A stretch of DNA of 64,000 nt from a virus. The stretch spans positions 310,001-374,000 of IMG/VR virus record IMGVR_UViG_3300030673_000004; one strand, 5' to 3'. Below, one piece after another: positions 888 to 63,569 of this stretch. Every line of letters begins with the position of its first letter. Within the stretch, counting starts at the first letter, position 1. A program made the position numbers and the translations under genes. Below the pieces are notes generated by a model. That model was not told the origin of the DNA, did no database searches, and worked only from the letters and a program-made list of their open reading frames with translations.

Positions 888-893
888 GTATCA

Positions 894-947: not shown

Positions 948-960
948 GTTGAAAGGATTT

Positions 961-3930: not shown

Positions 3931-3931
3931 T

Positions 3932-3990
3932 AGTTCTGGCCGCTGCGTAACTTCTTTTCAGAATGTCAATCGCAGTGGCCAGAACTTTTT
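3932..3990 (+). terminator. Long hairpin with T-tract overlapping a start codon
   Basis: A 16-nt left arm (3932-3947) pairs with 3971-3986 with a single G-U wobble. The 23-nt loop (3948-3970) holds the ATG of the amidoligase gene at 3963. TTTTT follows (3986-3990). It has the form of an intrinsic terminator but its right arm is the coding start of the next gene, so it could act as a terminator, an RNA processing or stability element, or a translation switch. Confidence 0.65.
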
Positions 3991-5579
3991 CTGATAGTGA
4001 CGCTTTTTCCAGCGCAAACGACTCACGTATAAAATGCGGGTTTGAGTTGGAGTGTGCCTCTGAATACAGTATAGAGGATTTCCAACAAAAACTATTACAT
4101 GGTGGGTTTGGGTTCACCAACTGGAATGATAGACCAGAAGGTAATCTACGAGCTTCAGACCACTATGGCCATGGGTACTCTAGCCTATGGAATATTGAAA
4201 AAGACGGCTCTATTCCAACAATGGGGCGGTACTCGCATCAAGTAGAGTTCAAATCTCCACCGCTACCCCTAAAAGAAACACTTGACTGGATAGAGAAGCT
4301 CTTTCCATTCATAAGCGAGTTTGCAATAGCGGCAAATAAAACCGCAGGATTTCATACCTCATACAGTATTGAAGGTGTAGATCTATATAGACAAACCAAC
4401 TTCATTAAGCTACTAATGATGCTTGGTGAGCCTCATATAGCAGAAGAGTTAGATCGTGGTGGGAACTACTATGCGGCACAACTTCTAGATGTTATAAAGA
4501 ATAAAATACAAGAGAACTATAAATCTCGTATGTCCGAAGCTGCAAAGGCTCAGTACTTTAGAGATTTATTAGATAACAACATACGATGGGATTCATATTT
4601 CTCAACAACTGAGAGATATTTTTCTATTAATCTACTACACGCACGTGATAACTATGTGGAATTTCGTCTTCTTGGTGGAAAAGACTACTTAAAAAAAGTA
4701 CCGCAAATCAAGCGCATGATAGCTCGGTTTGCCTATGCACTTAAAGTAGCTACCGATCCCAGAGCGTACAGAGATGAGTATTCAGCACTACTGTACACTA
4801 TGCTGCACGGTGAAGATGAAGACACGTCTATACAGTATTCAGAGCTACGCTGGCGTATAGAAACAGCGCAAAGTAGAATAGTTATATACCATAAAGAATC
4901 AAACAAAGCATATATAGCTCTATTCTATCGCAATAACATACAGGATAAAATCATCTATGACTATACTTGGTTAGATCAAACATTAGCAGAAGCAGATAAA
5001 GAACTAATTCGTAGGCGGGTAACATCTTTAATTAGCCGCCCAACAGTATGCTCAGGTATAGAATTACCACTCATATATACCAAAGATTTACTAGGCGAGT
5101 TCACGTACCAAAAAATAGATCAAATAGCCGCGAATAACCCCGGCACATATGAATGGGCGCTTAAGGCATTTGATTCTTTGGAGGTACTGCCATCACGAGT
5201 GGTAGCGTCTAATATATTACAAAGTGAAAATTACAAAGCAATACGAGAGTTTGTCCGACTAGCACTTCGATCCTCTGAAGATACACTAATACGAGCTCTT
5301 ACACATAAGATACTAAATGATCCTGAATTATACAGTCATTTTGTCAATACTCATGGCGAACTCATAGATAGAGAAAGTTACTGGGAACACTTAGGTGTAA
5401 CACAGTATCAAAAATTCGCACCGTTTGAGCATGAACTTCTTAACAGATTCAAAGACTCTGACGATCTAGGTCTAGAAGACTTGGGCACCCAAGAGATTGA
5501 GGATGTTCATTTTGAGCCCACCACCGCCCCAGTAAGAAGGAGGCGCAGGAGGCATACTCCCGATGAGGCGGAAGACTAA
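3963..5579 (+). CDS. Amidoligase-family enzyme
   Basis: The 538-aa product matches the amidoligase (glutamine-synthetase/COOH-NH2 ligase fold) pattern: GFELE at 26-30, a WNIEKDGSI block at 76-84, VEFKSPPLP at 94-102, and GFHTSYSI near 129-136 in place of the usual CGLHVHV. Such enzymes use ATP to join amino groups to carboxylates and often pair with GGCT domains, one of which ends the preceding gene. The His-x-Ser version of the last motif is divergent, so activity is not certain. The C-terminus (about 515-530) is an Arg-rich tail. The start lacks a clear ribosome site and lies in the loop of a stable hairpin. The stop overlaps the next start by one base (TAATG). The substrate is unknown; modification of virion or host cell-wall peptides is possible. 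Confidence 0.75.
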   Translation: MSIAVARTFSDSDAFSSANDSRIKCGFELECASEYSIEDFQQKLLHGGFGFTNWNDRPEGNLRASDHYGHGYSSLWNIEKDGSIPTMGRYSHQVEFKSPPLPLKETLDWIEKLFPFISEFAIAANKTAGFHTSYSIEGVDLYRQTNFIKLLMMLGEPHIAEELDRGGNYYAAQLLDVIKNKIQENYKSRMSEAAKAQYFRDLLDNNIRWDSYFSTTERYFSINLLHARDNYVEFRLLGGKDYLKKVPQIKRMIARFAYALKVATDPRAYRDEYSALLYTMLHGEDEDTSIQYSELRWRIETAQSRIVIYHKESNKAYIALFYRNNIQDKIIYDYTWLDQTLAEADKELIRRRVTSLISRPTVCSGIELPLIYTKDLLGEFTYQKIDQIAANNPGTYEWALKAFDSLEVLPSRVVASNILQSENYKAIREFVRLALRSSEDTLIRALTHKILNDPELYSHFVNTHGELIDRESYWEHLGVTQYQKFAPFEHELLNRFKDSDDLGLEDLGTQEIEDVHFEPTTAPVRRRRRRHTPDEAED

Positions 5580-23779: not shown

Positions 23780-26367
23780 ACGTCCGAAGCATGTCTCGTG
23801 ATGTTGTAGCTGACGGTACAACACGCATGTATGGTAACATTGATAAACTGGCAGAGCTCGCAGCGCTATCCAGTTATGGTATCATAGGTGATCTTAGTAC
23901 AAAACTAAAAGTTACAGTATCTCAGGCTGCCACGTGTATGCAAATAACTGCAGGCAGCTTTCTAACCCCATCAGGTGTCATCGGAGCATTCACAGATATT
24001 ACAACAGGTGTATTTCCACACTCCTTTGAACCGGGAACATCAGGTGTAATACTTGCCACATTTGATGTAGCTGAAAAAACAAGTATAAATGAGTACGGAC
24101 AATCTGTTATAGAGAACACCAGCATAACATCAACTTATGCGTGCTTATCTATTGATCAGTATGGCGAAAACTACGTTGAGTGGTATCCTAAATCAGTAGT
24201 TCTTGCTGTCTATAACATTATTGATGGTGCTATTGAATTAGACGAAAGTAATACTGTTGTCGCTAACACACGACGAGCATCAGGTTCTTTTGATAATAAG
24301 CACATAAACTTAGGATACCCGCAGTATGCAACAGAGAGAAATGTGCATGGATTACAATTTGATGATCTCTATACAGGCAGCACATCTTTCTTGAAGCAAG
24401 CATTCAAGGAGGGTTTTCTTATTGGTGGTGCATCTAGTAGCCAAGGTACACCTGGAGACACAACGGAAGTAGAAATAAACGAGGATGCATGGCAAATTGA
24501 TTATCTAGGTAGATTAACAGGTACACCGGGCATCTATTACGTATATCTACCCTCAACACCAACATCAGTAGCTAACATTGTAGATGCTGTCTACACGAGT
24601 TCTCCTGTAGCTGTAAACTGGTTAGACAAACAGAACGTTCTAACATCCAGCATACCTGTGCATGTGTACGTGAGTTATACAGCGCTTAGCGACTTTGATT
24701 TAGCAACACCCAACCCAACAAGTGCGCTAAAGCTACGAAATAACCCAAATAAGATTATCGTATCGGATGGAAAGATAATCCATACCAAAGCAAGTAACAC
24801 AGTACGCTTAGGTTTTGATTCTTACGCAGATTTGGTCCTTGATAAGATATCAACATATGTATCTACCAGTGGATCACTCGTAGCAGCCCCAACAGTAGTA
24901 GAGACAGCAACAGTAAATACAACGCTGACCGGCACATCACTGACAAGCAAGGTAACCTTCCCAACACCCAGCCAAGTATCCTTCGCCGTGCGGGGACAAG
25001 GTCTACAATCAGTGCAGGAACCGCCCCAAGGTGTCTTAAAAGTAACTAACTCACGCTTCATTGGAACAAACAATCTAACATTTACTGTTTCTAATGATGA
25101 AGAGACTGTAGCGCTATCAGCTACCGTAGGAACTACAGTGGTTCTGACAGCCACAGAACCCCTACATCCGTGTGGCTATCTAACAAAAGACGGAGTACTT
25201 GTAACAAGCTCCAGTTGGTATCGTATTGATGATTATACAGTAGCGTTGAACCCTAATGCACACACCACCGACTCTAAATACCTATGGATCTTAGCTGCAG
25301 GAGAATCACCTCGCTACTTAGGAAGAAGCATTCAAGCAGTTGGTACAGGATCTGCCCCAGATACAGTAAAAGCTACTGGTTATATTCAAATAACAACTAT
25401 TCCTCTAAGTGGTGATGCGATCACCATAACTACAACGGATTACACAGCAACGTTCACCTATGGTGCTAACTGGGCTATAGATACAACGCTACAGAGAGTA
25501 GCATCTTCATTAGTCACGGCAATTAACCGCTCTGACGTATATGCGGATGTAACATCAACAATACTAAACGATCCTGCTGGTGTGTACTTAAAAGTTACAA
25601 GCAGATCAAGTTCTGCTGATTGCAACAATTGGACCATTGAGAGTAATGCCACAGCACCGTTTACCGTTAAGTCTTTTTATGCTGGTGGCACTTATGCACC
25701 ATACAGTAGCGACCTTCTAAACATGACGGTCTCTGTACTGTACCAGCAAACACCTTATGTAAAAAAACCTAAGATCAATATCTATGCAACTAAATCCATT
25801 GCAGCAGATACGACATCAGATGAGAGTAAAATTTATCATTTAATGTATACGTTTGATGCCAGCGATAAGAAAACAGAATGGCGTAGTCATACACTCATTC
25901 GCAGTGATTTGATCATGGCTGACTATAATGATAGAACTAGCTATGATACAACAACTATGTTCTCTTTAGGATTAACCGTGACTGGGTATGATGCAGCCGG
26001 TGCCTCTCTAAATGAAACTCTCTCCTTTGATGAAGTGGATGCCTGGAGTCCTACGACGGGGTATTCAGATCTAGCGTTCAAGTCAACAGCTAACATCTAC
26101 TCGTCTCTGTCATCTTGGATTGTGTCAACCACGCCACCGTCATCGGTAAGTGCAACACTGAGTGTACTATCCAATCTCTATGACGAACCTTTTGACATGT
26201 TCCCTGTCAGAACGTTCAAGTTAGAAGGTGGTAAAGCTTGGAACTTCAAAGATACACGTAGAATTCTTATGGGCAATGCTATTGCAGGAGAAGCATCGCA
26301 GCAAGAACAACTGCATCAAGCATTATCCATGCAAAATGATGTCCTCACGGTAAGTGGTCTATTATGA
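23776..26367 (+). CDS. Large virion structural protein
   Basis: 863 aa, beta-rich. It shares features with the 745-aa protein at 45347-47584: a 'VHGLQFDDLYTG' block here against 'PHGQSLADLQIG' there, then 'SFDE...SSWIVSTT' against 'EFKG...VSWEVITT', and a late RRIL motif. The two are probably distant paralogues with the same role in different appendages. ATGA overlaps on both ends. Role inferred from position and composition. Confidence 0.6.
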   Translation: MNVRSMSRDVVADGTTRMYGNIDKLAELAALSSYGIIGDLSTKLKVTVSQAATCMQITAGSFLTPSGVIGAFTDITTGVFPHSFEPGTSGVILATFDVAEKTSINEYGQSVIENTSITSTYACLSIDQYGENYVEWYPKSVVLAVYNIIDGAIELDESNTVVANTRRASGSFDNKHINLGYPQYATERNVHGLQFDDLYTGSTSFLKQAFKEGFLIGGASSSQGTPGDTTEVEINEDAWQIDYLGRLTGTPGIYYVYLPSTPTSVANIVDAVYTSSPVAVNWLDKQNVLTSSIPVHVYVSYTALSDFDLATPNPTSALKLRNNPNKIIVSDGKIIHTKASNTVRLGFDSYADLVLDKISTYVSTSGSLVAAPTVVETATVNTTLTGTSLTSKVTFPTPSQVSFAVRGQGLQSVQEPPQGVLKVTNSRFIGTNNLTFTVSNDEETVALSATVGTTVVLTATEPLHPCGYLTKDGVLVTSSSWYRIDDYTVALNPNAHTTDSKYLWILAAGESPRYLGRSIQAVGTGSAPDTVKATGYIQITTIPLSGDAITITTTDYTATFTYGANWAIDTTLQRVASSLVTAINRSDVYADVTSTILNDPAGVYLKVTSRSSSADCNNWTIESNATAPFTVKSFYAGGTYAPYSSDLLNMTVSVLYQQTPYVKKPKINIYATKSIAADTTSDESKIYHLMYTFDASDKKTEWRSHTLIRSDLIMADYNDRTSYDTTTMFSLGLTVTGYDAAGASLNETLSFDEVDAWSPTTGYSDLAFKSTANIYSSLSSWIVSTTPPSSVSATLSVLSNLYDEPFDMFPVRTFKLEGGKAWNFKDTRRILMGNAIAGEASQQEQLHQALSMQNDVLTVSGLL

Positions 26368-27218
26368 AACGTATATTCAGCGAATCTTTAATTAGCCCGC
26401 GATGGGTGGATTCATCCACAGTAAACTATCGTTTCCCTGTAGTATCATCTGGAAATGAAACTCTACCAACAAGAGCACGGAAAGATGGGTACAGATCAAA
26501 ACCGATTAGAATCACAAATAGCAGCAGCATTGAGATCATAGGAACATATCGAGATGCATCCAATAAATCAGGATGCTTAGCTATATATACATGGCTGAAC
26601 CCAACAGTAATAGCAGCTAAAACACACAACGAATCAACTGTGCAGCTAGAAACTGTTGGTAATATGTATTTTGGTGAGTTCCTTGCAGGGGCCGCTGTAA
26701 TAAATGGAACATCATTCAAATCTAGCTACACTTTTGATGAGACTGTAGAGTTTATTCAAATTTATACGACTATGGATCTAACAGCAATCACCATCAGTGA
26801 GAGTGACATATCAGGTGCTGCTGTATCCCTCGTAGCACCGACAGCAACTACAGATGATGTCACAATTGAAGATGACTTTGAACTGGCTGAAGTAACTATA
26901 CCTGTGTTGATTGAAGACCCCTTCAGTCTAGGACCCGATGCTGATCCCTTCCTTACTATAGCGCCACTTCCAGGAACATATGCAGAGCCGGTACTTGTAC
27001 AACTATCTGTTACAACACCGTCTACGGTGTATTACACAACAGATGGTACAACACCAACAACAAGTTCTTTGGTATATACAGCACCGTTCTACGTGTTCTC
27101 CAATATCACAATTACAGCCTTAGGTGTTCCTGCAGACAGAACAGCTTCAGAAATTGCTACTGCTGTATATACTGTAATTTATACACCCGCTATCAGTCCA
27201 GCTAGTGGTGTACGCTGA
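26364..27218 (+). CDS. CHB_HEX-type repeat adhesin, 5' part of a frameshifted gene
   Basis: 284 aa. Residues about 195-275 form a complete chitobiase/hexosaminidase C-terminal-like module (GTYAEP...YYTTDGTTPTTSS...Y...). The next module begins ('PAISPASG') and is then broken by a stop; the rest of it follows in another frame at 27208. A 2-base loss in a GTGTG run at 27207-27211 would explain it. Read as one protein with the next ORF it would be about 1030 aa. Could be a real split, an indel in the phage, a sequencing error, or a slippage site. Confidence 0.65.
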   Translation: MKRIFSESLISPRWVDSSTVNYRFPVVSSGNETLPTRARKDGYRSKPIRITNSSSIEIIGTYRDASNKSGCLAIYTWLNPTVIAAKTHNESTVQLETVGNMYFGEFLAGAAVINGTSFKSSYTFDETVEFIQIYTTMDLTAITISESDISGAAVSLVAPTATTDDVTIEDDFELAEVTIPVLIEDPFSLGPDADPFLTIAPLPGTYAEPVLVQLSVTTPSTVYYTTDGTTPTTSSLVYTAPFYVFSNITITALGVPADRTASEIATAVYTVIYTPAISPASGVR

Positions 27219-29458: not shown

Positions 29459-32068
29459 ATGGCATTAACTAATGAAGTCCAATATCCTGAACCATCTGCC
29501 TCTGGTTTTCTTTTCGCAAATAAAGCATCAGATGGAACCATAACCTATACATGGCAGACAGGCGGAGCATCCGATAAACCGGAAACGCCAACATTCTCTG
29601 TTGCAGCAGGAACATATGCACAAGGTCAAAATGTAACAATAACATCCGCCACAACCGATGCTGTTATCTATTACACGATAGATGGCTCAATACCATCAAC
29701 AACAGCTACCCAGTACACAGACCCGGTAAGCATTAAAAACTCCTGCACACTATCAGCAGTCGCAGTAGTGAGTGGTTATACGTATAGCACAGTAGCAACA
29801 GTAGCGTACTCTATTGTTCGTCGCATTGTCACAACAGCCCAAGACAGTTCAACATACATAGCGGTTGCATTAACGAGTGATGACTCTGGTAGTACGTGGT
29901 CCGGCTTAGCCCTTCATAACTCAAATACAGCCTCACGTATTGCATCATTATATGGAACAACAGTACTATCTAGCAATTACTTATTTGCTATCAGTACAGA
30001 CAGATGCACTACGTTTAACACAATACCAGCTTCAACAAACAACACATACTGGCCACCAACGTCTATTAAAGATGTCCATGCGGTAAATGGCATATTCCTA
30101 GGATATGTTGGATATATAAACAGCAATGGGTCATATTATGCATGTGTTGCAGTATCACACTCAGGTAATTACTTTAAGTTCCTAAGCATTCCTGTACCAA
30201 GCCAACCTAGCTATAGCTACGGAAGCAGCGCACATATAGCAAATGCAGCTTTTTACAATGGAATATATCTTATCTGGCTAGGTAACTATATGCTGAAAAG
30301 TACAGATAACTGTGCAAGTTTTACAGTTTTATCTAATATGCCATTTGCACAAGGAACAGATCTAAAGAGTACAGCATATGGATTTATTTTAGGTGCCTCC
30401 TCTGCTGTATATACGTCAACAGATGGAGAAACTTGGAGTCAAGCAACTATAACTACGTATAGTAATTACAATTACATTGTATGCACTCTCTCTACTAACG
30501 TAATTCTAATATATAGCAGTTCTAACACACAAGTTAGTTACGATGGTGGTCATACATTTAACAAATGTTTTAATGTTTCTGGAAATGAAATTTTAGACTA
30601 TGCGCAATCCGACGTAAGAACTGCAGAGGTTGGCTACCTTCAAAACAATGTCACAGTACAACAAAGACAACTTATGCAGCCATCAACAGCTACACCTGTT
30701 ACTCAATCACAAAATACAGGAAATAGGGTAACATGGAACGGAGATAAGTTTATAATAAAAGCAGGAGCCGAACTAGAACGAATAGGAAATGATCCAAGCA
30801 CCTCCGAAACACTAACTACTCTCAGTACTTATGGCTCAACTCATGGACTCTCAATAAGCTCAGACTCCTCTATCGCGCTAGGAACGGTTAGTGATACTGA
30901 AACAAACCTGATTCAAGACACACAACAAACAGTGCCAACACCCACAGTAACAAAACTAGCCTATACCCAAACATACTTAACGGATTCCGGAAATGACGCT
31001 TTTACTACTAGCTTTGACACATTAAACTGCGGTTGTTATAATCCAGCAACAGGGCTTCTCTATGTAGCCCCAAGTTCAGGAAACATCAAAACAATAAACA
31101 CCGCAACGGGTGTTTATTCTAATCTAACAACAGGTGGTTATAAAACCTACACAGGTCTTCTCTACTGTAGCACAGATGGCTTTTTATATGGTGGTATAAA
31201 CGGTGGTTATATCTACAAAATAGATTCCACAACAGGCGTAGAAACAGCGCTAACATCCGTATCTAGGTATTGGGCATATCTAACATACAACCAAACTAAT
31301 AGCTTACTCTATGGAGTTTGCAGAACTTCATCAAGTAGCTATGGCAATACATCACTATATAGCATATCCCTAACAGGCACAGAAACATTAATAACAGCAG
31401 CATCTTCTTACCAATCAATACAAGGAATAAGCTACGATAGTAATAATGTGCTTATAATGAACTATGATGGTTCAGTATTGCGCGTATCAACAAGTGATAT
31501 AATAACTACAGTTAATACATGCATAGATCATGGTACGCATTATGCAGCAACAAAACCTATAGTATTTAATTCTCAGTATATTGGAATAGCATCAAATACG
31601 CTTATAGGTATGGCTGCCGATGGTACTGTCATATATCTGCCAAACCCGACTAACACAACGCGATCCTATAAACTTCTCATTGTAGCAGGATCCAGCCTAT
31701 ATGCAATTGTTAATGAGTACATATCTGGAACAACCTACCCAAACAGACTACGCTTACTGGCAGTAAGCACAACAAGTACCAATTATGTTGATGCAACAGT
31801 AACGGGAGATAACAACCTATTCCCTATACTGTTCGGAACCACTGACGGTTCAGATCCAACACCATCAAGTCAGGTGCTAGCAGCAAACGGAAGCTTAACT
31901 ATCCAAAATGCTACAGGAACATTGCAAAATTTTACATACAGTTATGGTACCTATGGTGGGGATCTAAGCAATATAACAGTAGCAAAGTTGCTAGCAGGAA
32001 ATACACTAAAAGTATTTGCATACATACCTAATTATACTATTAGCACAATTGTAACTACACAACTATAG
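29459..32068 (+). CDS. Adhesin: CHB_HEX module plus Asp-box propeller
   Basis: 869 aa. One CHB_HEX-type module at about 38-120 (GTYAQG...YYTIDGSIPSTT). Residues about 125-400 carry Asp-box motifs (SDDSGSTW, STDNCASF, STDGETW, SYDGGHTF) of sialidase/BNR-type beta-propellers. A second propeller-like part (500-770) repeats 'G-x-LY...I-x-T/S-x-T-G'. The last 85 residues (FGTTDGSDPTPSS...) look like a worn CHB_HEX module. AAAGGTGA is a good ribosome site. Likely a tail appendage that recognises host surface sugars. Confidence 0.7.
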   Translation: MALTNEVQYPEPSASGFLFANKASDGTITYTWQTGGASDKPETPTFSVAAGTYAQGQNVTITSATTDAVIYYTIDGSIPSTTATQYTDPVSIKNSCTLSAVAVVSGYTYSTVATVAYSIVRRIVTTAQDSSTYIAVALTSDDSGSTWSGLALHNSNTASRIASLYGTTVLSSNYLFAISTDRCTTFNTIPASTNNTYWPPTSIKDVHAVNGIFLGYVGYINSNGSYYACVAVSHSGNYFKFLSIPVPSQPSYSYGSSAHIANAAFYNGIYLIWLGNYMLKSTDNCASFTVLSNMPFAQGTDLKSTAYGFILGASSAVYTSTDGETWSQATITTYSNYNYIVCTLSTNVILIYSSSNTQVSYDGGHTFNKCFNVSGNEILDYAQSDVRTAEVGYLQNNVTVQQRQLMQPSTATPVTQSQNTGNRVTWNGDKFIIKAGAELERIGNDPSTSETLTTLSTYGSTHGLSISSDSSIALGTVSDTETNLIQDTQQTVPTPTVTKLAYTQTYLTDSGNDAFTTSFDTLNCGCYNPATGLLYVAPSSGNIKTINTATGVYSNLTTGGYKTYTGLLYCSTDGFLYGGINGGYIYKIDSTTGVETALTSVSRYWAYLTYNQTNSLLYGVCRTSSSSYGNTSLYSISLTGTETLITAASSYQSIQGISYDSNNVLIMNYDGSVLRVSTSDIITTVNTCIDHGTHYAATKPIVFNSQYIGIASNTLIGMAADGTVIYLPNPTNTTRSYKLLIVAGSSLYAIVNEYISGTTYPNRLRLLAVSTTSTNYVDATVTGDNNLFPILFGTTDGSDPTPSSQVLAANGSLTIQNATGTLQNFTYSYGTYGGDLSNITVAKLLAGNTLKVFAYIPNYTISTIVTTQL

Positions 32069-42600: not shown

Positions 42601-43723
42601 CACAATAGATGGAACAACACCAACAACAACATCTTTGCTCTACACAGGTCCAATCACTATTTCAGGAAATACAACACTTCAAGCTATTGGTATATTTGAA
42701 GGTTTAACAAACAGTGACATAGTATCTGCTACATACACATTCTCATGCATAACACCTACAGCATCCATCCCGGCAGGAACATGGGGTGCTACAAAAATAA
42801 TTACGCTTTCTTCTGAAACAAATAATACAAAAATCTACTACACCACAGATGGTACAGCACCAACCCAAAATTCTGCTATTTATAGTACGCCAATACATTT
42901 AGTAACGACAGCAACATTAGCGTTCGTAGCAACAAAACATGGATATGCTTCCACGTCAGTAGTCACAAACGTGTATACAATCATTCGAGGGGACCTATAC
43001 TATGGAAGCTATAATGTAAAAGTTGTCAATACAACAAATAATGTTTCTGCTAAGCTAAACTCGTTCTATGACGGCAACATGTGTGCCGTAGCTGCTGACG
43101 GTCAGTCTCTTTATGCCTTAGGCACAGCGGGCCTAACAACAATAAACCCTCACACAGGAGAGTACACAACAGTTGCACTTTCAATAACAGATACTATTGA
43201 GGGTGATTCATTCGTATCAGCAACATATTACGATAATGCAATATATGCATGCGTATCCAGTGGTGGTTCAGATAGTGGCGTTTATAAAATAGACCCAAAA
43301 ACATACAGTGTGACATTAGTACGTAAACACAATTATGTACAAGGCATAACTGTATATAATGAAAAGATCTATTTTTGCACTCCCTATGAAGCTATAAAGT
43401 ATATGAATCTTGATGGGTCCAATGAGACAGTACTGAACTCATCCACATCATATATGTGGGGAAGCCTAATCGTCTTTAATGACTATTTATATGCAGGAAG
43501 TTATGAATATACTAATACGTCATTAACAAAAGTACCTGGCGGGATTTACAAAATAGATCTAACAACAGGAAGCATCGTTAGTATAATAAATCAAGAGCTA
43601 GATCGCTACTGGGTAGGTCTTGCTGCCGGTACGGATCAGCTCTATGCTAGAGATAGCTTAACAGGCATATATAGAGTTAATGTACACAACAATACAGTAA
43701 CTCAGATTGTGAGTGAATTCTAA
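39671..43723 (+). CDS. Giant adhesin with propellers and six CHB_HEX modules
   Basis: 1350 aa. Residues 1-320: Asp-box propeller (SNDGGSTW, SVDHGATY, STDHGVTF, SQDSGTSW). Residues about 325-590: three CHB_HEX modules. Residues 590-855: a second propeller-like part without Asp boxes (GTLYAATENKNLYSIDL). Residues 860-1105: three more modules. Residues 1110-1350: a third propeller-like part (LYALGTAGLTTINP, GVYKIDPKTYSVTLV). This ordered alternation of propellers and beta-sandwich spacers suggests a long flexible receptor-binding arm. No terminator separates it from its neighbours. Confidence 0.75.
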   Translation: MTLINNWTNSTGTLSPTTAAYVSAIGQDNYILTTGTQGDSPYYSNDGGSTWTAATVNDTWAGKTTMCLATVSSDSRIYLINQAIPKLYVSVDHGATYSVASSGNQYTCLTCVGSTLFATLETGTTLYKSTDHGVTFTAIATPDTTATAIFVAANSTCLFLCSTDTNTHLINMYRSQDSGTSWTQILTNYTIGFIGELFHTTNSTYLSIYDVPSNSILLLKSDDNFSTSTPITALSAIMPAPIVLGGADSSNDIYVVSFYTSGVLATSNDSGTSFVNEAPDSNGQVTLAIGDTSIVAITNSPSSGITAVYSGMLPGGIVKPNKPTISPATITNASPLTVTLETATTGAALYYTLDGTDPTESSTLYTSPFTLTYAVPTICTVKAIAVANSISSTVATQVYHIGNQVSAPVITGTLNTYGANMTITITDTTDGALIYYTDDGTTPTTTSAAYTEPFLTFESSIDIKAIAVKSGYFDSSIAESLINTGIAVSTYPTLGPYLNTYNCNPVASATRKFTIGTTAHIEMLSTTDGVHDQAPIYYTLDGSTPTIASTQYAAPLSITESCVVKAVSIKGVKTPTIGPVATITYTFTAGVLAKPTAYTLGAEYVDLTTGTHTTTTSDPGYVLTAVFIPDYNNGIGALATAEGTLGNVTPSYIYLCDPITYEPFKRLTQLDNGDNIRALAYSTDTGTLYAATENKNLYSIDLNTETITTLSVLLPNPIYYYLIYNNVDQCLYGYCSGSINSLVKYNTVTSTLSTITSNALYHVDFCDPITGTLYGHSGTGNNPGLFTIDPNTGVATEVITTTTSYDKVLHDNISGNTYALTYPGNAAVTAYTLDLAARTETLKFTAALTQGVQDTTIASTATVPAPLFSVAGGSYNIAQTVAITNRLTGINIYYTLDGTAPTANSTLYTEPLLVEYPLTLKAIATKSGFAQSYATVATYNISYTKVPKPILSVASGSFTNDQTVTLSDTKEGVTFYYTIDGTTPTTTSLLYTGPITISGNTTLQAIGIFEGLTNSDIVSATYTFSCITPTASIPAGTWGATKIITLSSETNNTKIYYTTDGTAPTQNSAIYSTPIHLVTTATLAFVATKHGYASTSVVTNVYTIIRGDLYYGSYNVKVVNTTNNVSAKLNSFYDGNMCAVAADGQSLYALGTAGLTTINPHTGEYTTVALSITDTIEGDSFVSATYYDNAIYACVSSGGSDSGVYKIDPKTYSVTLVRKHNYVQGITVYNEKIYFCTPYEAIKYMNLDGSNETVLNSSTSYMWGSLIVFNDYLYAGSYEYTNTSLTKVPGGIYKIDLTTGSIVSIINQELDRYWVGLAAGTDQLYARDSLTGIYRVNVHNNTVTQIVSEF

Positions 43724-44586
43724 TGAGTGCTGCTAATCTAACGTATTACGTATTCCTAGTAAGTTCTCCCGTAATAACACCAGCATCCGGTTACTATAGT
43801 GCAAACCAAAACATGCAAGTAACAATAACCAACCAAACAGATGGCGCTGTAGTTTTTTACACAACAGATGGAAGTGATCCTACAACAGCATCACAGGCAT
43901 ACTCAGGACAATTTAATATAACAGCACCAGCTACAATAAAGGCTATTGCGGTTGGAACCACTACAAGCAGTATTGTTGAAGAAAACTTTAGTGTTCATGA
44001 GCGAGCACAACCCCCTACAATACTACCAGCACCAGGAACATACCAAGGCTCCATTACAGCTACAATTACAACGACCACAGTTGGTGCTTCTATATATTAC
44101 TCAACTAATGGAACTAACCCAACAGCCACGTCTGGGATACTTTACTCCGGCCCCATTACAGTAAGTAAAACAGAAAAGATTAAAGCTATTGCCGTCTCAT
44201 CAAATTATGACAATAGTAATATCACAGCCGCATCATACACAATAACTGAGTTACCAATAGCACCAGCACCATCTATAACACCAAAAACAGGACAATATAC
44301 AACATCAACAGTTGTTACTCTCCAAACAGCACTAGCTTCTGGGGTTATCTATTACACAGTAGATGGAACTATCCCGACAGTTCATTCTACACATTATACA
44401 AATCCAATTACAGTGACTGAAGATACTACAATAAACGCTATTGTTATTGCAGATAACTATAAAAACAGTGCTATAACATCATCAGTGTATAGCCTTGTAG
44501 CCCCGCAACAAAGCTATCTAAACATATATGACTTCAAAATGGGATTACGAAAAGTAGACTCTTTTGCAACGGACAAAGACATATGA
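43723..44586 (+). CDS. Short adhesin: three CHB_HEX modules and shared C-terminal tag
   Basis: 287 aa, TAATG-coupled to the giant adhesin. Three modules (about 12-90, 95-175, 180-262) with YTTDGSDPTT, YSTNGTNPTA and YTVDGTIPTV cores. The C-terminus (YDFKMGLRKVDSF) matches the end of the 1083-aa adhesin at 35709. Lacks a propeller, so it may be a stalk or anchor unit. Confidence 0.7.
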   Translation: MSAANLTYYVFLVSSPVITPASGYYSANQNMQVTITNQTDGAVVFYTTDGSDPTTASQAYSGQFNITAPATIKAIAVGTTTSSIVEENFSVHERAQPPTILPAPGTYQGSITATITTTTVGASIYYSTNGTNPTATSGILYSGPITVSKTEKIKAIAVSSNYDNSNITAASYTITELPIAPAPSITPKTGQYTTSTVVTLQTALASGVIYYTVDGTIPTVHSTHYTNPITVTEDTTINAIVIADNYKNSAITSSVYSLVAPQQSYLNIYDFKMGLRKVDSFATDKDI

Positions 44587-45104
44587 CAACGAGACAACCG
44601 CAAAACTACCCATGGTACATTGAATTAAGAAAACACCTAATAGATCCTTTCTTCAAATCACAGAAAACGGGATCCATAGGACGCATGTTCTCTACAGTAA
44701 CATTTGGCATCTGCTGTTATTACTGGTTAAGCAGAACAGGCTCATCTAATCATGAAGCACCGGCATCCCTGCTTCAAGTGTTCTTCTGGACTACGGGTTA
44801 TGTGTTCGCCAATAAGGTAGTACATACTACATCAAAACACATAGCATCTTACCAGAACGCCGCCGTGCCAGCGATACCTTCAATTAATAGCTTCGGTCAC
44901 GGCACCACACAGGTACAGCCAACTACACCCCCAGTACCTACGGTAAAGCAAGCTGCAGCAAAAGGAACCAAGACATCAAAAAAGACAGCACCTGTAATCC
45001 CTACAGAAGATTCACAGGAACCTGAGGATTCATCTGATCAAACCACAGATGACAATGCAACGCAAGCGTCGGGTGATACTGTCATAGATAGTGATGCAGG
45101 ATAA
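44583..45104 (+). CDS. Two-TM protein with acidic tail, holin-like
   Basis: 173 aa. Two hydrophobic segments (about 35-50 and 62-78) separated by a short loop, then a Lys-rich patch (about 125-140) and an acidic Ser/Asp/Glu tail. This arrangement fits a small membrane protein such as a holin, but the long tail is unusual and no lysis enzyme lies next to it. ATGA overlap with the preceding adhesin. A holin role is a guess from topology. Confidence 0.55.
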   Translation: MTTRQPQNYPWYIELRKHLIDPFFKSQKTGSIGRMFSTVTFGICCYYWLSRTGSSNHEAPASLLQVFFWTTGYVFANKVVHTTSKHIASYQNAAVPAIPSINSFGHGTTQVQPTTPPVPTVKQAAAKGTKTSKKTAPVIPTEDSQEPEDSSDQTTDDNATQASGDTVIDSDAG

Positions 45105-45144
45105 ATAAAAAGAGGACCCAGGGCATGCACACCCGAGGTCCTCT
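45103..45144 (-). terminator. Intrinsic terminator of the minus-strand ncRNA
   Basis: On minus, AGAGGACC (45144-45137) pairs with GGTCCTCT (45118-45111), with inner GGG/CCC pairs, followed by TTTTTATTT. On plus there is no T-tract after the stem, so the hairpin terminates leftward transcripts. Confidence 0.75.
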
Positions 45145-45261
45145 CCCGGTAGTCAAAAGCTCTTCAGGAGCTTAGTGTCACCTCAACTAACTGTTGAGCT
45201 GATGACTACAGGCTACGTTTCGAGCCGAAGCCCGTAAGGATGTCTCTGAAGAACCGTCCTC
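45103..45261 (-). ncRNA. Candidate structured small RNA, antisense-oriented
   Basis: About 160 nt of minus-strand sequence between a consensus promoter (45268-45296) and an intrinsic terminator. Predicted elements from 5' to 3': AGGA/TCCT hairpin; TACGGGCT/AGCCTGTA hairpin with a 14-nt loop; outer helix GTAGTCA/TGACTAC enclosing two hairpins (CTCAAC/GTTGAG and AAGCTC/GAGCTT); then the terminator. No gene-sized frame with a ribosome site lies inside it. At 45187-45176 it carries GTTGAGGTGACA, the exact complement of the predicted 5' ends of the two early mRNAs at 61651 and 62614. I infer a regulatory RNA. I do not recognise a known family. Confidence 0.65.
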
Positions 45262-45267
45262 AATCAA

Positions 45268-45296
45268 AATATAACATACTACCTAGTGATTGTCAA
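45268..45296 (-). promoter_or_regulatory. Sigma70-type promoter (TTGACA-N17-TATATT) for ncRNA
   Basis: On minus, -35 TTGACA at 45296-45291, 17-bp spacer and -10 TATATT at 45273-45268. Hexamers and spacing are identical to the three other promoters in the window, but the leader after it differs. The predicted start is near 45261. It overlaps no plus-strand gene if the next gene starts at 45347. Confidence 0.75.
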
Positions 45297-45346
45297 GGTC
45301 TAATAACTTCTTCGTAGAAGATATTGGCAAAAGGTACCTATTACTC

Positions 45347-49044: not shown

Positions 49045-49449
49045 ATGCCTGCTGTAGATCTCTTTCCAGACATCAAGTCAGTTAAAGCACTCCAGCAGGC
49101 ATTGTTCTCATACCCACCGAATGAGATTGAAAAGTACGACTTAGCATCTAGACAGCTCATCTTAAGCACTTTGATTGCAAAAGCAGAAGCTGTCTCACAT
49201 AAACTACCAGACTACTATTATAGCACGCATACGCATCCTGAATTGATTGATGCGTACCAAGCCAAAATAGGTTATGTGCCCATGTCACTGCTCGATCAAG
49301 TAAATGAAGCCTGGGCTGGTAACTTTGAAACACTTGAACAATACTACGAATTCATCTCTGTGTACAAAAAAGCAAATATCCAAAGTTCGTACATAGCGCC
49401 ACAGCAAGATGCACAAGAGGCTGCTGTCGTAGATCCGGTACAGTACTAA
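49045..49449 (+). CDS. Hypothetical protein
   Basis: 134 aa, helical, Tyr- and Gln-rich. It starts four bases after the preceding stop and overlaps the helicase start through TAATG, so it is probably translated with the helicase and may be its partner. No family recognised. Confidence 0.6.
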   Translation: MPAVDLFPDIKSVKALQQALFSYPPNEIEKYDLASRQLILSTLIAKAEAVSHKLPDYYYSTHTHPELIDAYQAKIGYVPMSLLDQVNEAWAGNFETLEQYYEFISVYKKANIQSSYIAPQQDAQEAAVVDPVQY

Positions 49450-52400
49450 TGCCACGTACATCTAAATTTGATAAATACACGCAGGGCCGTCTACGCATCC
49501 TACAAAATGCAGATTTGGATGAACGAGAAGCCCTGCAAAGAACAGTTGATCTAGTAAACGCTAGGTACAATAAAGCTATTCTGCTTGCTCGTGGCATGGC
49601 AGAGAGACAAGAGAGTGCCTTCAGAGGACAAGCGGAATTGCATGGTGGGATTGTTGCACAACTAGCAGCACATACCAGTATGATGCCACCGAGCAACTTG
49701 GAAGGAACTAGTTGGGTATCACGAGGTAAAGGACAAGGTGCTGCGCCTAGTCATCCCTCAAGAGCTAATGAAGCAGCACAAGAAGCTGCAGAGACACCGC
49801 CGAGTACTCCAGCAGAAGCTACATCAGCACTTACACCGATAGTAGCTACAGAGATCGCCACAGATCCAATATCACTATCAGATGATACTGATGACAGTTA
49901 CACGTCACCACAACCGGAACGCCGTCGTAAAGGCTTTACAGCTACTGAGATGCATGCTGTTCATGACGCTACAACAGAGCCTGGCACGGCAGGCATGTCT
50001 TCTGAACTACTCGCATCAACACCCTTGAATAATATCCTAGGTGATCCTGGTGAAAAGTTCGTTGCTCTTGGCTTTCAAGCCGGTAGAGCACCGTACTTCG
50101 GTGGCTATGGACCGGGCACAGGTGATCAGCTAGGATTCTACATAGGAAACCAGTTCACAGATGGAAACTCTACTGTAACAGGTATCACAGAAGAAGATAG
50201 ACAAGCACTAAAATTCGTAATACGAAAAATAGTTGGCGCAGGCTGCATCCGTATTGACGGTCTAACACAGCATCTGTTACCAAACAACATAGTTCAGCAA
50301 GCCCGCGATCTTGAGGCAGATAGAACCGTTACATGGGTACTTCCACTAAGTATCTATGGTACTGTACATGACGGGGCAGGATACGCTGCTGGTATTTATG
50401 TTGGATGCTACACTAAACTAATTGGAACACAACAAACACATACCTTTGAAACACAGTGGATTATTGGTTTCTGGGGTGCTGTTGGGATGTCTGCCCAAGA
50501 AATTGATGTAGCAAGCATGAAGCAGTTCGATCTATCATCTGATAGTATCCTCACTGCAATTGGCTATTCTTGTTTGAGGAACCTAATTAATCACCAAAAT
50601 CCTACAATAGAATTACGCGAGTTATCCTTACGAACAGGTATTCATGACGCATCTCATCCAAATGAGATGATCAAGACACCTACCGGAAACTTCATTGTAG
50701 TCAAAAGCACTGATCGTAGAAATGAATTTCCTGGGTATGCAACTACAGGTGTTCTCCCTGATGACTTAAAGGATGTACCACAGCCTACACGAACAAACAT
50801 GCGAGGACGCATTGTCTTTGTAGACTGGTCACGCAAGATGATCCACTACTATACAGAGAGTGGAAAACTACATGTAAAGCTATTTGGTACTGGAACAGAA
50901 GTCAGCAACTACGACTACGAACAACTGTACCAACACCCAGTAAGATTATTCAAGAGTGATATTGAAGCAGCTATTCAGCTTGTTTCCGATCTACGCAGAT
51001 TAGGTAAGCCAGTACCACCAGAAGCACGAACGGCCTTCCTAAACCACCCATGGGATGAACACCTTGATGGATTCACTTCTGCAATCCATGGTGGAGGTCT
51101 TACACCTAGAACACAGTACGATGAATTAGCTGCAGAGCTCGCACCGCTAGCGGAAGACCCCGTACTCTGTCTTACGTTAGAAAACCTTGTAGCCAGTTAC
51201 AAAGGTGATCAAACTCTCTACAATTTAGCTCAGAGCTACTATGATGTAGTCTCCTTTGATATGGCGCATGCCCTTGTAAATGGTTACTCGTTCACAGGTA
51301 CTAATAGCGATACAGCATCATTTGATGATGTAGCAGATCCACGCTCAAATGAACAACGCATGCGCACGCCTTTACTAGGTGTACTTTTACATCTAGTAAA
51401 CAAGCCGAGCTTGCCTACAATGGAACAAGTTCAACAGCGCTTCAAAGAAGAGCACGAGCGTATGCAGAACCCTGACATGAATTTCATTATTCATGGTATA
51501 GGTAAGTATTTGAACCAAGCGGGCATTGCCGAGATATATAAACTCAAGCCTCACCAGGTCCGTGTCTTAGGCATGCTTCTACCACTTGATAAAGGTATCA
51601 TTGACGTAGATATGGGTGGTGGAAAGTCTATCATCGCGATCCTTAAGATCATCAGCATGATAGAAAAACTGAAGGCTGAAGGAAAGAGACCACGACCTGT
51701 CGTAGTTGTACCAAATGCCCTGGTACCAACATTCTATCGTGAAATCAAAAAATTCACACGCACAGATCCATCAGACGCATCGTCGGCTACAACACTGAAT
51801 GTAGTCACACTGCAGAATAGCTCAACGTTGAAGCGCATGAACCGCGATGCTATGATCGCAGCAGCACAGCATGCCCCAGATAATACCATATTCATTGCTT
51901 CCTACTCCTGGCTAGCTGGTGACCGCACATCTATCCACACAGGTGAATACATCACAGGAGCTCGTGGAAAGAAAGAACCTAGAGTAGAATATAGATTCAA
52001 TAGAGTAGAAGACTTGCTTGATCGTATCGGCATCAACATAGTATTCTTAGACGAGTGTCATAAGATCAAAGCCAATGGTCGTATGAATGGTGACTTTATT
52101 CATAAAGCTGCCATGGCACTCTCTAGAGCCCCGCATAGATTTGAAATGACAGGCACATTCATATCCAGAACACCTTTTGATATCTTCAACCAAGTCAAAT
52201 TTATTGATCCAACTATTCTAGGATCCCTTCAGCAGTTCAAGGATGAGTTCACAGAGAATGATGGTCGCACCTGGGATAGCGATAGTCTAAAAAGACTCAG
52301 AAGCCATCTGATCAACCGAGGTATCATCACAGTCAGACGTGAAGAGTGGTTGTACCTCATGCCTGAAAAGCGTGAGCACTTCCATTTTGTAGACTTCCAG

Positions 52401-55064
52401 CGGGAGGCTCCTATTGTGTACAAACTGTACACAAGCCTCTGGACATCAACCTTGTCTGAATTTCCGCAAGAGCTAAATCAGCTTCTTGAGGGGGGTACAC
52501 TCCTGGGTGGTACTGATAGTGACAGCGATCTTGAAGTAAATAGCGACATAATAAATCTCAATGATGCGGAAACAGAAGAACAAGAAAGCAACGCTCTTAC
52601 AGCATTAGAGCAGGCCCAACATGTTGCTGCGGATCAAATCAGGACAGTGCGCAATAGTAAAGTAGCCGGTAGAATGATGGCACTTCGGGCGCTCATATCA
52701 GCACCTGAGAAGTTTCCCATGTTTACAGCTATTGCTGATAAGATGCGTAACGTTGTTGACTTTAATATCGCTGACCTAAAAAAGGGTCCTAAAGATAGCA
52801 CTGTTCTCAAAATCATTGAAGAGCACTTCAGAGCTACAGGCGGTACTTATGTAAAACCATCGGAACAAGTAGGCCCGGAAGAAGACAAAGTTGGCAAAAT
52901 AATCATTTTCTCAGACAGAGCACTGATCGCACGACACTTTGAAAATCTGCTCAGAGAACATTATGGCAACGGTGTCTGCTATTATGATAGCGCTCATAGA
53001 CAGTACCTAGATGACTTCTCAGATCCAGACAAAGAAGAACCCTTTATCCTTTGTGCTGTAGAGAACTCAATCAAAGAAGGCGTCAATCTCCAGTCTGCCA
53101 GCAGAATCATCCGCCTGACAGTGCCTTGGACTACCGGCGACTACGATCAATCGTGCGCCCGTGCTTTCCGAACAGGCCAGAAGAAGCGTGTTGATATTGA
53201 TAATGTTATCTGTGAAATGAGCTTTGAGCCTGCTATGCTAGCTCGCCTTATCACACGAGAGAATACAAATAAAAAAGTATCATCAAACTACAATAATTCG
53301 TTTGACATACCTGAAATAACAGTCAACCTCAAAACAGCAAGTCCCGAGGGTGAAGAATCTATCATGTCCAAGCGGGATCTGGAAAACTTCCATGGATCCG
53401 CAGCCAGTGACAGAATCAACCTACTGAACATACATGATAGCATATACACCTACGAGAAACAAGAATCGCGCTTGTGGAAAGTGGCTTATCTTACCAAGTT
53501 GACAGACAATGAAGAGCTTGCGCACAGCCAACCAGATAAGTACATAACAAGAGAAACGGATAGAACAAATCTTGTGTATAAAACCATAGGTGTTAGAGCA
53601 GTACCTGAGGGTACTACTGCTGATAGACTACCTGTGAATGTACCAGCTATCGCTAACATGCATATTCTAGGTGTACCCCTTAAAGTTATCACAAGAGGTA
53701 CACAGTTACGTGCTGTCCTATACACGCCAGACCCAAATAAACCAGGACAACTGGCACTAAGCACTACTCCAATGTACCAGCTAGATGAGTCTAATGATAG
53801 ACTAGCTGAAGGATCCGTTGCAGACAGCACAAAATCATATGAACCTTGGCCTACTACAGGCATACGTCCGGATGAGATGGCTAAAACATCGGACATTGAA
53901 ACAGAGGATGACGAGAGCACAGAGGATCTCTTAACACCAGAAGAGAAGATGGAGAAGCGTATCGGTACAGCTATTGATGAAGCAGCAGATCTAAATCTAG
54001 ATCCAAGATTCACCAAGAGCCTAAAAGATTCCCCCAATGCAAAAGCCATCAAAACAAACCTGGTAAAAGTTGTTAAGAAAGCAGCACTCAACGGAGAATC
54101 TAATCCCCTCTTCCATAAATCCAAAGCCATGGGACATCTATTCCAAGCAGCCACCGGCTTGAATTTAGATCAAAAGAGACCTGCCAACATTGTAGATGCT
54201 CAAATAAAACAAGCATCTCGGTTCGTTCGTCATAACATGGCCATGGAGCATGCTGAGTATAGCATTAAGCATCCAGAAGTAGCTGAAGGTAGACCACCGA
54301 AGTCACCAGCTATCACAGAAGTACCCAGTTCGCCGGATGCGGCGGATAGACAATCCCTGCGTGTTGCTCTAGGAATGAGTACACAGCAAAATACTGAAGT
54401 AGCTGTGCTTGCCGTTGACTTTGGCGTAAGTAATCCCCTAGCTAATGACTTCTATAAAGTAGCGCAAACAGGGCGCTTCGGACGTTGGTCCTTGATGAAC
54501 CGTACAATCTACAGACAAATAAAGTCTACCCAGGACTTAGCTAATCTGCAAGAGAGTATGGAGGATCGTGGGATGAAGTTCAACTTTGATGATGCCGCCC
54601 GCAATCGTAATACTTTACAACAACTACTGAACACATTACCATTTGAAGAAGCAGACGACGATGCGGTTGGACTACTAAATAGCCATGCATATGCGTCTGT
54701 TGATGATGACGATACAGACAATGAAGAAGAAAACATAGAAAGTATTAATGACTGGGCGTACATGGCTTTGGATCGCAAAGTCATACTGTATGTCATGGAT
54801 ACCCCTGCAACAGCACAGTTCATTAGACCCTTACTTGGGTTAGGCTTCAAGCGTGCTGCCCGGCTACTTCTGCATTTCACAAGTAAAACAGACCTACCAC
54901 GGGTCATACGTAAGATAGAAGAATCCGGATTTGATCTTCGTAGTAGAGATGCCTTGAATGCACGAGCCATGAGAATACTAAAAACAAGACTAGAAGATCC
55001 ATACCACAGCGAACTTCCTGAAGAGCAGATAGCAGAGACAGGAGACGAAGCAACCTCTGAGTAG
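49449..55064 (+). CDS. Giant SNF2-type superfamily 2 helicase/ATPase
   Basis: 1871 aa. The helicase core spans about 695-1260: Walker A MGGGKS at 722-727, DECH at 868-871, a TGTF-type motif III near 901, and motif VI QSCARAFRTGQ at 1234-1244, whose R-x-x-R-x-GQ form is typical of SNF2/Rad54-like ATPases. Residues 1-690 have a low-complexity linker (about 85-150) and unrecognised domains; the 600-residue C-terminus is helical with acidic stretches. SNF2 ATPases move along duplex DNA and remodel bound proteins. Its place inside the structural block suggests it may be packaged and injected, as large antirestriction proteins such as P1 DarB are, but this is inference. No methylase motif seen. Confidence 0.85.
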   Translation: MPRTSKFDKYTQGRLRILQNADLDEREALQRTVDLVNARYNKAILLARGMAERQESAFRGQAELHGGIVAQLAAHTSMMPPSNLEGTSWVSRGKGQGAAPSHPSRANEAAQEAAETPPSTPAEATSALTPIVATEIATDPISLSDDTDDSYTSPQPERRRKGFTATEMHAVHDATTEPGTAGMSSELLASTPLNNILGDPGEKFVALGFQAGRAPYFGGYGPGTGDQLGFYIGNQFTDGNSTVTGITEEDRQALKFVIRKIVGAGCIRIDGLTQHLLPNNIVQQARDLEADRTVTWVLPLSIYGTVHDGAGYAAGIYVGCYTKLIGTQQTHTFETQWIIGFWGAVGMSAQEIDVASMKQFDLSSDSILTAIGYSCLRNLINHQNPTIELRELSLRTGIHDASHPNEMIKTPTGNFIVVKSTDRRNEFPGYATTGVLPDDLKDVPQPTRTNMRGRIVFVDWSRKMIHYYTESGKLHVKLFGTGTEVSNYDYEQLYQHPVRLFKSDIEAAIQLVSDLRRLGKPVPPEARTAFLNHPWDEHLDGFTSAIHGGGLTPRTQYDELAAELAPLAEDPVLCLTLENLVASYKGDQTLYNLAQSYYDVVSFDMAHALVNGYSFTGTNSDTASFDDVADPRSNEQRMRTPLLGVLLHLVNKPSLPTMEQVQQRFKEEHERMQNPDMNFIIHGIGKYLNQAGIAEIYKLKPHQVRVLGMLLPLDKGIIDVDMGGGKSIIAILKIISMIEKLKAEGKRPRPVVVVPNALVPTFYREIKKFTRTDPSDASSATTLNVVTLQNSSTLKRMNRDAMIAAAQHAPDNTIFIASYSWLAGDRTSIHTGEYITGARGKKEPRVEYRFNRVEDLLDRIGINIVFLDECHKIKANGRMNGDFIHKAAMALSRAPHRFEMTGTFISRTPFDIFNQVKFIDPTILGSLQQFKDEFTENDGRTWDSDSLKRLRSHLINRGIITVRREEWLYLMPEKREHFHFVDFQREAPIVYKLYTSLWTSTLSEFPQELNQLLEGGTLLGGTDSDSDLEVNSDIINLNDAETEEQESNALTALEQAQHVAADQIRTVRNSKVAGRMMALRALISAPEKFPMFTAIADKMRNVVDFNIADLKKGPKDSTVLKIIEEHFRATGGTYVKPSEQVGPEEDKVGKIIIFSDRALIARHFENLLREHYGNGVCYYDSAHRQYLDDFSDPDKEEPFILCAVENSIKEGVNLQSASRIIRLTVPWTTGDYDQSCARAFRTGQKKRVDIDNVICEMSFEPAMLARLITRENTNKKVSSNYNNSFDIPEITVNLKTASPEGEESIMSKRDLENFHGSAASDRINLLNIHDSIYTYEKQESRLWKVAYLTKLTDNEELAHSQPDKYITRETDRTNLVYKTIGVRAVPEGTTADRLPVNVPAIANMHILGVPLKVITRGTQLRAVLYTPDPNKPGQLALSTTPMYQLDESNDRLAEGSVADSTKSYEPWPTTGIRPDEMAKTSDIETEDDESTEDLLTPEEKMEKRIGTAIDEAADLNLDPRFTKSLKDSPNAKAIKTNLVKVVKKAALNGESNPLFHKSKAMGHLFQAATGLNLDQKRPANIVDAQIKQASRFVRHNMAMEHAEYSIKHPEVAEGRPPKSPAITEVPSSPDAADRQSLRVALGMSTQQNTEVAVLAVDFGVSNPLANDFYKVAQTGRFGRWSLMNRTIYRQIKSTQDLANLQESMEDRGMKFNFDDAARNRNTLQQLLNTLPFEEADDDAVGLLNSHAYASVDDDDTDNEEENIESINDWAYMALDRKVILYVMDTPATAQFIRPLLGLGFKRAARLLLHFTSKTDLPRVIRKIEESGFDLRSRDALNARAMRILKTRLEDPYHSELPEEQIAETGDEATSE

Positions 55065-61638: not shown

Positions 61639-61686
61639 TGTTGAGGTGACAAGAACAAATATACATTAATTTTGTACTCTTGTCAA
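61639..61686 (-). repeat. 48-bp promoter-leader repeat, copy 1
   Basis: Matches 62602-62649 at 46 of 48 positions; the two differences are in the spacer just after the -35 box. Covers the promoter and the first 13 nt of the leader. Conservation past the promoter argues for a function in the leader as well. Confidence 0.85.
61658..61686 (-). promoter_or_regulatory. Early promoter P1 (TTGACA-N17-TATATT)
   Basis: On minus, -35 TTGACA 61686-61681, spacer 17 and -10 TATATT 61663-61658. Predicted start 61651, giving an mRNA that begins UGUCACCUCAACA and reaches the ATG after 26 nt. Consensus hexamers suit host sigma70 RNA polymerase, so early expression is likely. Confidence 0.8.
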
Positions 61687-62601: not shown

Positions 62602-62649
62602 TGTTGAGGTGACAAGAACAAATATACATTAATTTTGTATGCTTGTCAA
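62602..62649 (-). repeat. 48-bp promoter-leader repeat, copy 2
   Basis: Second copy of the 61639-61686 repeat (46/48 identical). Contains TGTCACCTCAAC at 62614-62603 on minus. Confidence 0.85.
62621..62649 (-). promoter_or_regulatory. Early promoter P2 (TTGACA-N17-TATATT)
   Basis: On minus, -35 TTGACA 62649-62644, spacer 17 and -10 TATATT 62626-62621. Predicted start 62614; leader 26 nt, the same length as P1. It lies in the short gap after the CYTH gene, so the downstream genes get their own strong promoter. Confidence 0.8.
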
Positions 62650-62664
62650 CAAGAAGATTCTAAA

Positions 62665-63144
62665 TTAAAACTTAGGTACCTTCTCAGCTAAATTGGAATT
62701 ATAGTAACGAGGATCTCCTGTCACCTCAGCACCTAGCCATGTGGGGATATTTACAAACGTATCTGCTGATGGTAGCTCCACTTCGGCAAGGACCAAACCA
62801 GCGAGATGCCCAAGAAACACATCAACTTCAAACAAATGTCCCTTATATTTAATACCATACCTATCTTTAATTATCAATCCGGAACAGTACCCGTTAAGCA
62901 TCTCCTGAGCGTCCCCCAAAGGGATCTCATACTCAAATTCGTGCCCAGACATACCGTCGAGCTTGGGTCCTTTAAGCGTGATATAAGCATGAGCTGTACT
63001 ATCAGCTAACTGGATAGTCCGAATACGTATAGTCATCTTATCAGAACTGCGATAAATGTATGCCTGTGTAATCCTCTCAGGTACGCAGTGAGACAGTACC
63101 TGGGTGTCTCCCATTAAGAACTTGCGCTCTGTTTCAATAGCCAT
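62665..63144 (-). CDS. CYTH-domain triphosphate tunnel metalloenzyme
   Basis: 159 aa from ATG 63144, which overlaps the preceding stop (TGATG); the start is supported by the N-terminal ETERKFL, the ExExK-type signature that begins this family. Later marks: RIRT, TLKGPK, HEFEYEIP, KDRYGIKY, EVDVFLG, LAEVELP and a C-terminal 'PTWLGAEVTGDPRYYNSNLAEK', all as in short bacterial TTM proteins such as NeuTTM, which hydrolyse inorganic tripolyphosphate. Related CYTH enzymes act on thiamine triphosphate or make cAMP. A phage copy may act on polyphosphate or nucleotide signals; substrate is not certain. Confidence 0.85.
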   Translation of the reverse strand: MAIETERKFLMGDTQVLSHCVPERITQAYIYRSSDKMTIRIRTIQLADSTAHAYITLKGPKLDGMSGHEFEYEIPLGDAQEMLNGYCSGLIIKDRYGIKYKGHLFEVDVFLGHLAGLVLAEVELPSADTFVNIPTWLGAEVTGDPRYYNSNLAEKVPKF

Positions 63145-63569
63145 CAATGCTGCCTCTGTGTTGGTTCTCGTGGTATATCGGCACGTAACGTATTCCAAAA
63201 GATGTCGCAGTTAATTACGTCATCCGCACCAATACCTGCAGGATGTTTCTTGCACGTATGAACTACGAAACCATTATCTCTTAGAATAGCACACAAAGTA
63301 TCACAAAAGACACCAGATTTAAGTTCTATGGTACTACGAGTTAAACCTATGCGAGCATTCTCCCTGATAGCTTCCCGAAGCGTACAGCTCCAGTACTGCT
63401 GAGCACGGCACTTTTCCTGACTTTGCCAAACAGCAACATCAGCAGCACACCGATCAGCAAAAGAACAGGTATCTTGTAAGCGAGCACGCTTACGAAGTAC
63501 GTGCGCTAAGTAAATGATAAAAAATACTGCAGCTATAGCACCAAGAACAGCAGATTGATTAGAAAGCAT
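63144..63569 (-). CDS. Small membrane-anchored protein
   Basis: 141 aa. An N-terminal TM helix (about 6-24) is followed by a basic stretch (RKRAR) and a Cys-rich soluble part (eight Cys), so it is probably anchored with the soluble part in the cytoplasm. AAGGA precedes the ATG. Coupled by TGATG to the CYTH gene, which suggests a joint role. No family recognised. Confidence 0.6.
   Translation of the reverse strand: MLSNQSAVLGAIAAVFFIIYLAHVLRKRARLQDTCSFADRCAADVAVWQSQEKCRAQQYWSCTLREAIRENARIGLTRSTIELKSGVFCDTLCAILRDNGFVVHTCKKHPAGIGADDVINCDIFWNTLRADIPREPTQRQH

Follow-up and report, generated by a model that had tools for sequence, protein, structure and literature searches.

A predicted small RNA of a jumbo phage complementary to a leader sequence shared by a set of its operons

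The CI RNA of phage P4 is a structured antisense RNA whose short complementary segments are aimed at a phage leader beside the ribosome site, and in phage T4 the proteins RegA and RegB act on the ribosome-site regions of many early mRNAs. The c4 RNA encoded by phages P1 and P7 likewise targets a phage leader in antisense through short complementary segments, and sar of P22 and OOP of lambda are antisense RNAs that block the translation or cause the decay of a phage mRNA (PMC12197685). The small RNAs VpdS of VP882 and PreS of lambda act in trans by base pairing (PMC12197685, citing original work). Most of the phage small RNAs described to date have as their target either a single phage gene, in cis, or host mRNAs. 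In addition, PAK_P4 has been reported to produce an RNA antisense to the endolysin gene (as15, PAK_P4as15; PMC12197685), and the jumbo phage phiR1-37 produces misc_4, a small RNA that derives from a stretch lying between two genes and for which host targets are predicted only (PMC4848604).

In this study, we report a candidate small RNA gene found in a window of 64,000 bp, bases 310001-374000 of a virus record with a total length of 375,537 bp. As in the phage small RNAs that act in trans, the predicted RNA presents a short complementarity to the 5' regions of mRNAs encoded elsewhere (12 nt, nine predicted mRNAs): its minus-strand locus, at 45 kb, is apart from the leaders, which are found at 61.6 and 62.6 kb and in the rest of the genome. 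On balance, we favour the interpretation that the minus-strand gene at 45103-45296 encodes a trans-acting antisense small RNA which pairs with nt 1-12 of about 11 operon mRNAs, reduced translation initiation being its likeliest effect.

The predicted small RNA gene and its surroundings

Judging from its baseplate-J-like, tail-type and jumbo-phage primase genes, the record is a tailed phage. The labels early and late are used here as deduced from promoter class, gene content and strand. The window contains a plus-strand array of 41 genes with a median gap of 8 bp, and the largest gap of this array holds the small RNA gene together with its promoter (Table 1). The window has five promoters with no more than one mismatch, and this is one of them; it belongs to the same near-consensus class as those of the cassette operons described below but lacks their spacer motif, ATACAAAATTAATGTAT. 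The terminator hairpin, a strong one, was missed by a simple terminator scan, probably because of its internal mismatch, and the tail UUUUUAUUU that follows it is compatible with Hfq binding through a U-rich terminator tail. The predicted RNA folds better than all 200 of its shuffles (z -4.0), its gene is present in a single copy in the genome, and it has no convincing ORF. The Rfam search of the window and the locus gave nothing at the gathering score, the best E-value (2.6) corresponding to a eukaryotic snoRNA.

Table 1. Coordinates of the features of the small RNA locus and of the two cassettes in the window
Feature	Position in window	Strand	Basis
Predicted small RNA, 159 nt; +1 at about 45261, 3' end in U tract near 45103-45107	45103-45261	-	Promoter, terminator, fold
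Small RNA promoter, TTGACA-17-TATATT	45268-45296	-	11/12 consensus bases
Terminator hairpin (12+4 bp) and U tract, then UUUUUAUUU	45103-45147	-	
Anti-leader segment GUUGAGGUGACA, 3' arm of hairpin with AGUUA loop	45176-45187	-	Complementary, without mismatch, to nt 1-12 of nine predicted mRNAs
Gap between plus-strand genes, 242 bp, holding the small RNA gene and promoter	45105-45346		
Leader nt 1-12 UGUCACCUCAAC, then AAGGAG; 60-aa ORF from 61625	61640-61651	-	
Cassette promoter TTGACAAGAGTACAAAATTAATGTATATT	61658-61686	-	
Leader nt 1-12 UGUCACCUCAAC, then AGUAAGGAUC; 193-aa ORF from 62588	62603-62614	-	
Cassette promoter TTGACAAGCATACAAAATTAATGTATATT	62621-62649	-	

Other parts of the window also present features of their own. 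A protein of 1871 aa (49449-55064) is of the SNF2 helicase type, and its helicase part alone matches known jumbo phages, with about 25% identity. CHB_HEX_C_1 / Fn3_assoc domains were found in three proteins of the structural region (26364-27218, 29459-32068 and 43723-44586), the last of which carries them three times. Within 886-5579, a gamma-glutamyl-cyclotransferase-like domain is located in the C-terminal part of a 1014-aa ORF, beside a putative amidoligase (3963-5579). At 859-947, another near-consensus promoter is followed by a leader of about 60 nt with a terminator-like hairpin (GGGCACCGAAAGGTGCCTTTTT) and then by an ORF (963-3930); this leader is possibly an attenuator or a small RNA.

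The leader and its promoter cassette

In the whole record, TGTCACCTCAAC has 10 exact copies, of which three are located in the window (45176-45187 on the plus strand, 61640-61651 and 62603-62614 on the minus strand). Nine of the 10 stand at the predicted +1 of a repeated cassette with the layout TTGACA-N17-TATATT-N6-TGTCACCTCAAC-(AAGGAG), AAGGAG being present in most of them, and the tenth is the reverse complement inside the predicted RNA. The +1 was placed after six bases counted from TATATT, that is, at 61651 and 62614, and the start codons of both window mRNAs begin at nt 27. A preliminary description of this DNA had given the three positions and their exact match, had identified the complement as nt 1-12 of two early mRNAs and had noted a promoter and a terminator for the minus-strand RNA, all of which was confirmed here.

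Two further cassettes have one base changed each (C12T at genome 143969 and T8C at genome 248757), and more distant cousin leaders at genome 112550 and 114575 keep 10 contiguous pairs with the RNA through G-U. Window 62603 and genome 143969 have another Shine-Dalgarno context yet retain nt 1-12 or 1-11, so what all the leaders have in common stops at approximately the end of the match; the common unit consists of about nt 1-13 plus the promoter. The operon at genome 3786 has an intact leader, although its promoter spacer shows drift at several positions and the sequence just before +1 is different. A total of 59 promoters of the TTGACA/TATATT class were collected, and most of them are without the leader. 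The first genes of the cassette set encode small proteins, the one exception with a Pfam match among those tested being a nucleotidyltransferase of the RlaP type.

With respect to other genomes, DNA and protein searches of INPHARED, IMG/VR and a bacterial genome set, from which near-identical records may have been withheld, found no close relatives and no relative that keeps the cassette or the RNA. The relatives found were distant jumbo phages only, with primase identities of about 31% at most, and the cassette was present in 0 of 29 distant jumbo-phage records, in which there was one chance 12-mer. Two bacterial MAG matches to the promoter-leader pattern lacked the TTGACA cassette and were judged to be due to chance.

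Some additional traits of the cassettes must be noted. The spacer motif ATACAAAATTAATGTAT, a palindrome (ATACA-N7-TGTAT), is common to many of the 59 promoters, including those at window 61658-61686 and 62621-62649, and exceeds what sigma-70 needs, and it may be an operator. The cassette-driven ORF downstream of G000:C1:8702 (L003) starts with MPFKILIIDDDAN, resembling a response-regulator receiver, and has no Pfam match. Finally, TGTCACCTCAGC occurs on the plus strand at window 62719-62730, where the minus-strand gene at 62665-63198 encodes GCTGAGGTGACA; it is an 11/12 complement of the leader located 105 bases downstream, which is probably a matter of chance.

Proposed pairing with the leader and alternative explanations

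The calculated energy of the duplex is -19.4 kcal/mol, and the opening costs are 7.3 kcal/mol for the 12 nt of the RNA and 1.4 kcal/mol for leader nt 1-12. In the predicted fold GUUGAG is paired, as had been described; GUGACA, which had been considered free and a possible seed, has its UGA mostly paired in a 3-bp stem extension, and opening it costs about 1.1 kcal/mol. From the comparison of duplex and opening energies, pairing is plausible, with entry at GUGACA even though this is not fully single-stranded. Since duplex-folding energies calculated over 40 nt did not discriminate among the targets when used for ranking, contiguous complementarity was used instead.

If the RNA acts by antisense pairing, the GUUGAGGUGACA segment would pair with the extreme 5' end (nt 1-12) of the mRNAs from about 11 cassette operons, possibly starting at the weakly held GUGACA and then spreading by opening the 6-bp hairpin. 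The duplex formed in this way would reach right up to the Shine-Dalgarno sequence, which in the AAGGAGUU leaders could be partly covered by five extra pairs suggested by co-folding (AGCUC of the RNA with GAGUU). Given that the duplex would abut AAGGAG and that these five further pairs with GAGUU could form, hindered ribosome loading is the likeliest effect. Because its promoter is of the early-like near-consensus class, the small RNA is expected as soon as infection begins, and it would then be a brake on the set of cassette operons. Late plus-strand transcription across 45103-45261 would generate an RNA complementary to the small RNA over its whole length, and this could eliminate the regulator; in this regard, the terminator scan found no terminator-like site in the plus direction within the 159 bp. 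The preliminary description had considered that the RNA might switch off the early genes when the late genes begin. This timing is not supported, as the small RNA and the early operons have near-consensus promoters of one class, and a better fit is an early brake that opposing late transcription silences afterwards. An antisense action on a shared mRNA 5' end is the best-supported reading, with its targets extended from two to about 11 operons.

Several observations on the sites bear on this interpretation. The match begins at the predicted +1 and is exactly 12 nt long, the leader at genome 3786 has been kept despite the drift of its promoter spacer, and the C12U change at genome 143969 retains a G-U pair with the RNA, all of which support it. 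The arrangement of the 10 genomic copies, the contiguous pairs kept by the two cousin leaders, the calculated energies and the predicted transcription unit in the largest gap also speak in its favour. Against it, the T8C change at genome 248757 creates an internal A-C mismatch with the RNA, and half of the anti-leader segment is buried in a stem. The promoter spacer is conserved as much as the leader among the cassettes; therefore, conservation of the leader alone does not point to pairing. Four of the six leader changes within the genome keep pairing through G-U, but such wobble-compatible changes were not more common among these six than under a transition-biased null, and we rejected them as evidence of selection since transitions alone give about as many.

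Among 20,000 dinucleotide shuffles of the RNA, 7 gave a 12-nt antisense match to the cassette leader and 166 gave one to at least one of 56 leaders; in a previous run with slightly different bounds, 4 of 20,000 shuffles matched the leader in antisense and 13 of 20,000 matched the whole cassette on either strand. It could nevertheless be argued that the RNA exists but serves some other function, such as a host target or a role in late mRNA processing, and that the 12-mer is a coincidence helped by the Shine-Dalgarno-like GAGGTGA. The figure for any leader and the selection of this finding among many are in line with that argument, as are the approximately 7 exact 12-mer matches of the RNA to the whole genome that are expected by arithmetic. 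What weakens it is the low figure for the cassette leader and the fact that the only match of at least 9 nt found among the 56 leaders compared is with the single leader present in 9-11 copies, in antisense and from +1. Considering that the match was singled out by a reader from much scanned sequence, we keep about one quarter of our expectation for coincidence. The notion that GAGGTGA is a ribosome-site mimic was rejected, there being no start codon at a useful distance from it.

The involvement of one protein that recognises both sites, for example a translational repressor of the T4 RegA kind, with the hairpin at about 45176-45210 serving on either strand as a decoy or autoregulatory copy, is in our opinion unlikely. 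It would be consistent with the leader being a repeated element adjoining the ribosome site, with the plus strand of the locus carrying the leader sequence itself within a CUCAAC-UAACU-GUUGAG hairpin and with the 5' arm of the RNA being also leader-like. However, the exact match is antisense on the minus strand, which is the one with the promoter and the terminator, while the sense-like arm fits at 9 of 12 positions and the copy at the locus is not followed by AAGGAG. This plus-strand copy at 45176 was also considered as a remnant cassette and rejected, as neither TATATT nor AAGGAG is present at its flanks. We regard as quite improbable that the RNA activates or stabilises its targets, either by shielding the 5' end from decay through pairing at nt 1-12 or by keeping the leader CCU from pairing with the Shine-Dalgarno AGG. 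The leader is indeed predicted to form a 3-bp CCU/AGG hairpin, and the duplex would leave most of AAGGAG free, but this leader structure is very weak, as indicated by the low cost of opening nt 1-12, and base pairing so close to a ribosome site more often results in inhibition.

Comparison with known systems

If antisense control of the cassette operons is true, the many operons whose common +1 tag is recognised by this small RNA would constitute a post-transcriptional regulon inside a phage. More tentatively, it is possible that this jumbo phage coordinates about 11, perhaps 13, scattered operons post-transcriptionally by means of one small RNA that reads a 12-nt 5' tag and is encoded antisense in the structural array, where late transcription would erase it. 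Since both the partner and the target sites are defined to the base, a role of small RNAs in the gene timing of jumbo phages is directly testable. No phage RNA matching a shared +1 tag on many of its own operons was described in the limited literature searched, which is not proof of absence.

Like c4 of P1/P7 and CI of P4, the predicted RNA would be a phage antisense within a structured RNA, acting through short segments on a leader that adjoins the ribosome site. They differ in that c4 is an immunity regulator acting in cis on a single operon, whereas here the targets would be about 11 operons over 375 kb of a jumbo phage, in the examined parts of whose genome no lysogeny genes were seen. Additionally, c4 and CI lie in the leader of the operon that they control, and the RNA predicted here does not. 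In contrast with sar and OOP, which are cis-encoded and have a long perfect overlap with a single target, this RNA is trans-encoded with a match of 12 nt. Trans-acting base pairing, here predicted from sequence, is shared with VpdS and PreS; these are Hfq-dependent RNAs of temperate phages with host or host-and-phage targets, while the candidate described here would read one leader repeated across the operons of its own phage. The RNAs misc_4 and PAK_P4as15 have been studied in lytic infection, and misc_4 comes from between genes, as in our case, but neither has been described as matching a repeated phage leader. Finally, as with RegA and RegB of T4, one phage factor would act on many early mRNAs, the candidate factor being in this phage an RNA instead of a protein.
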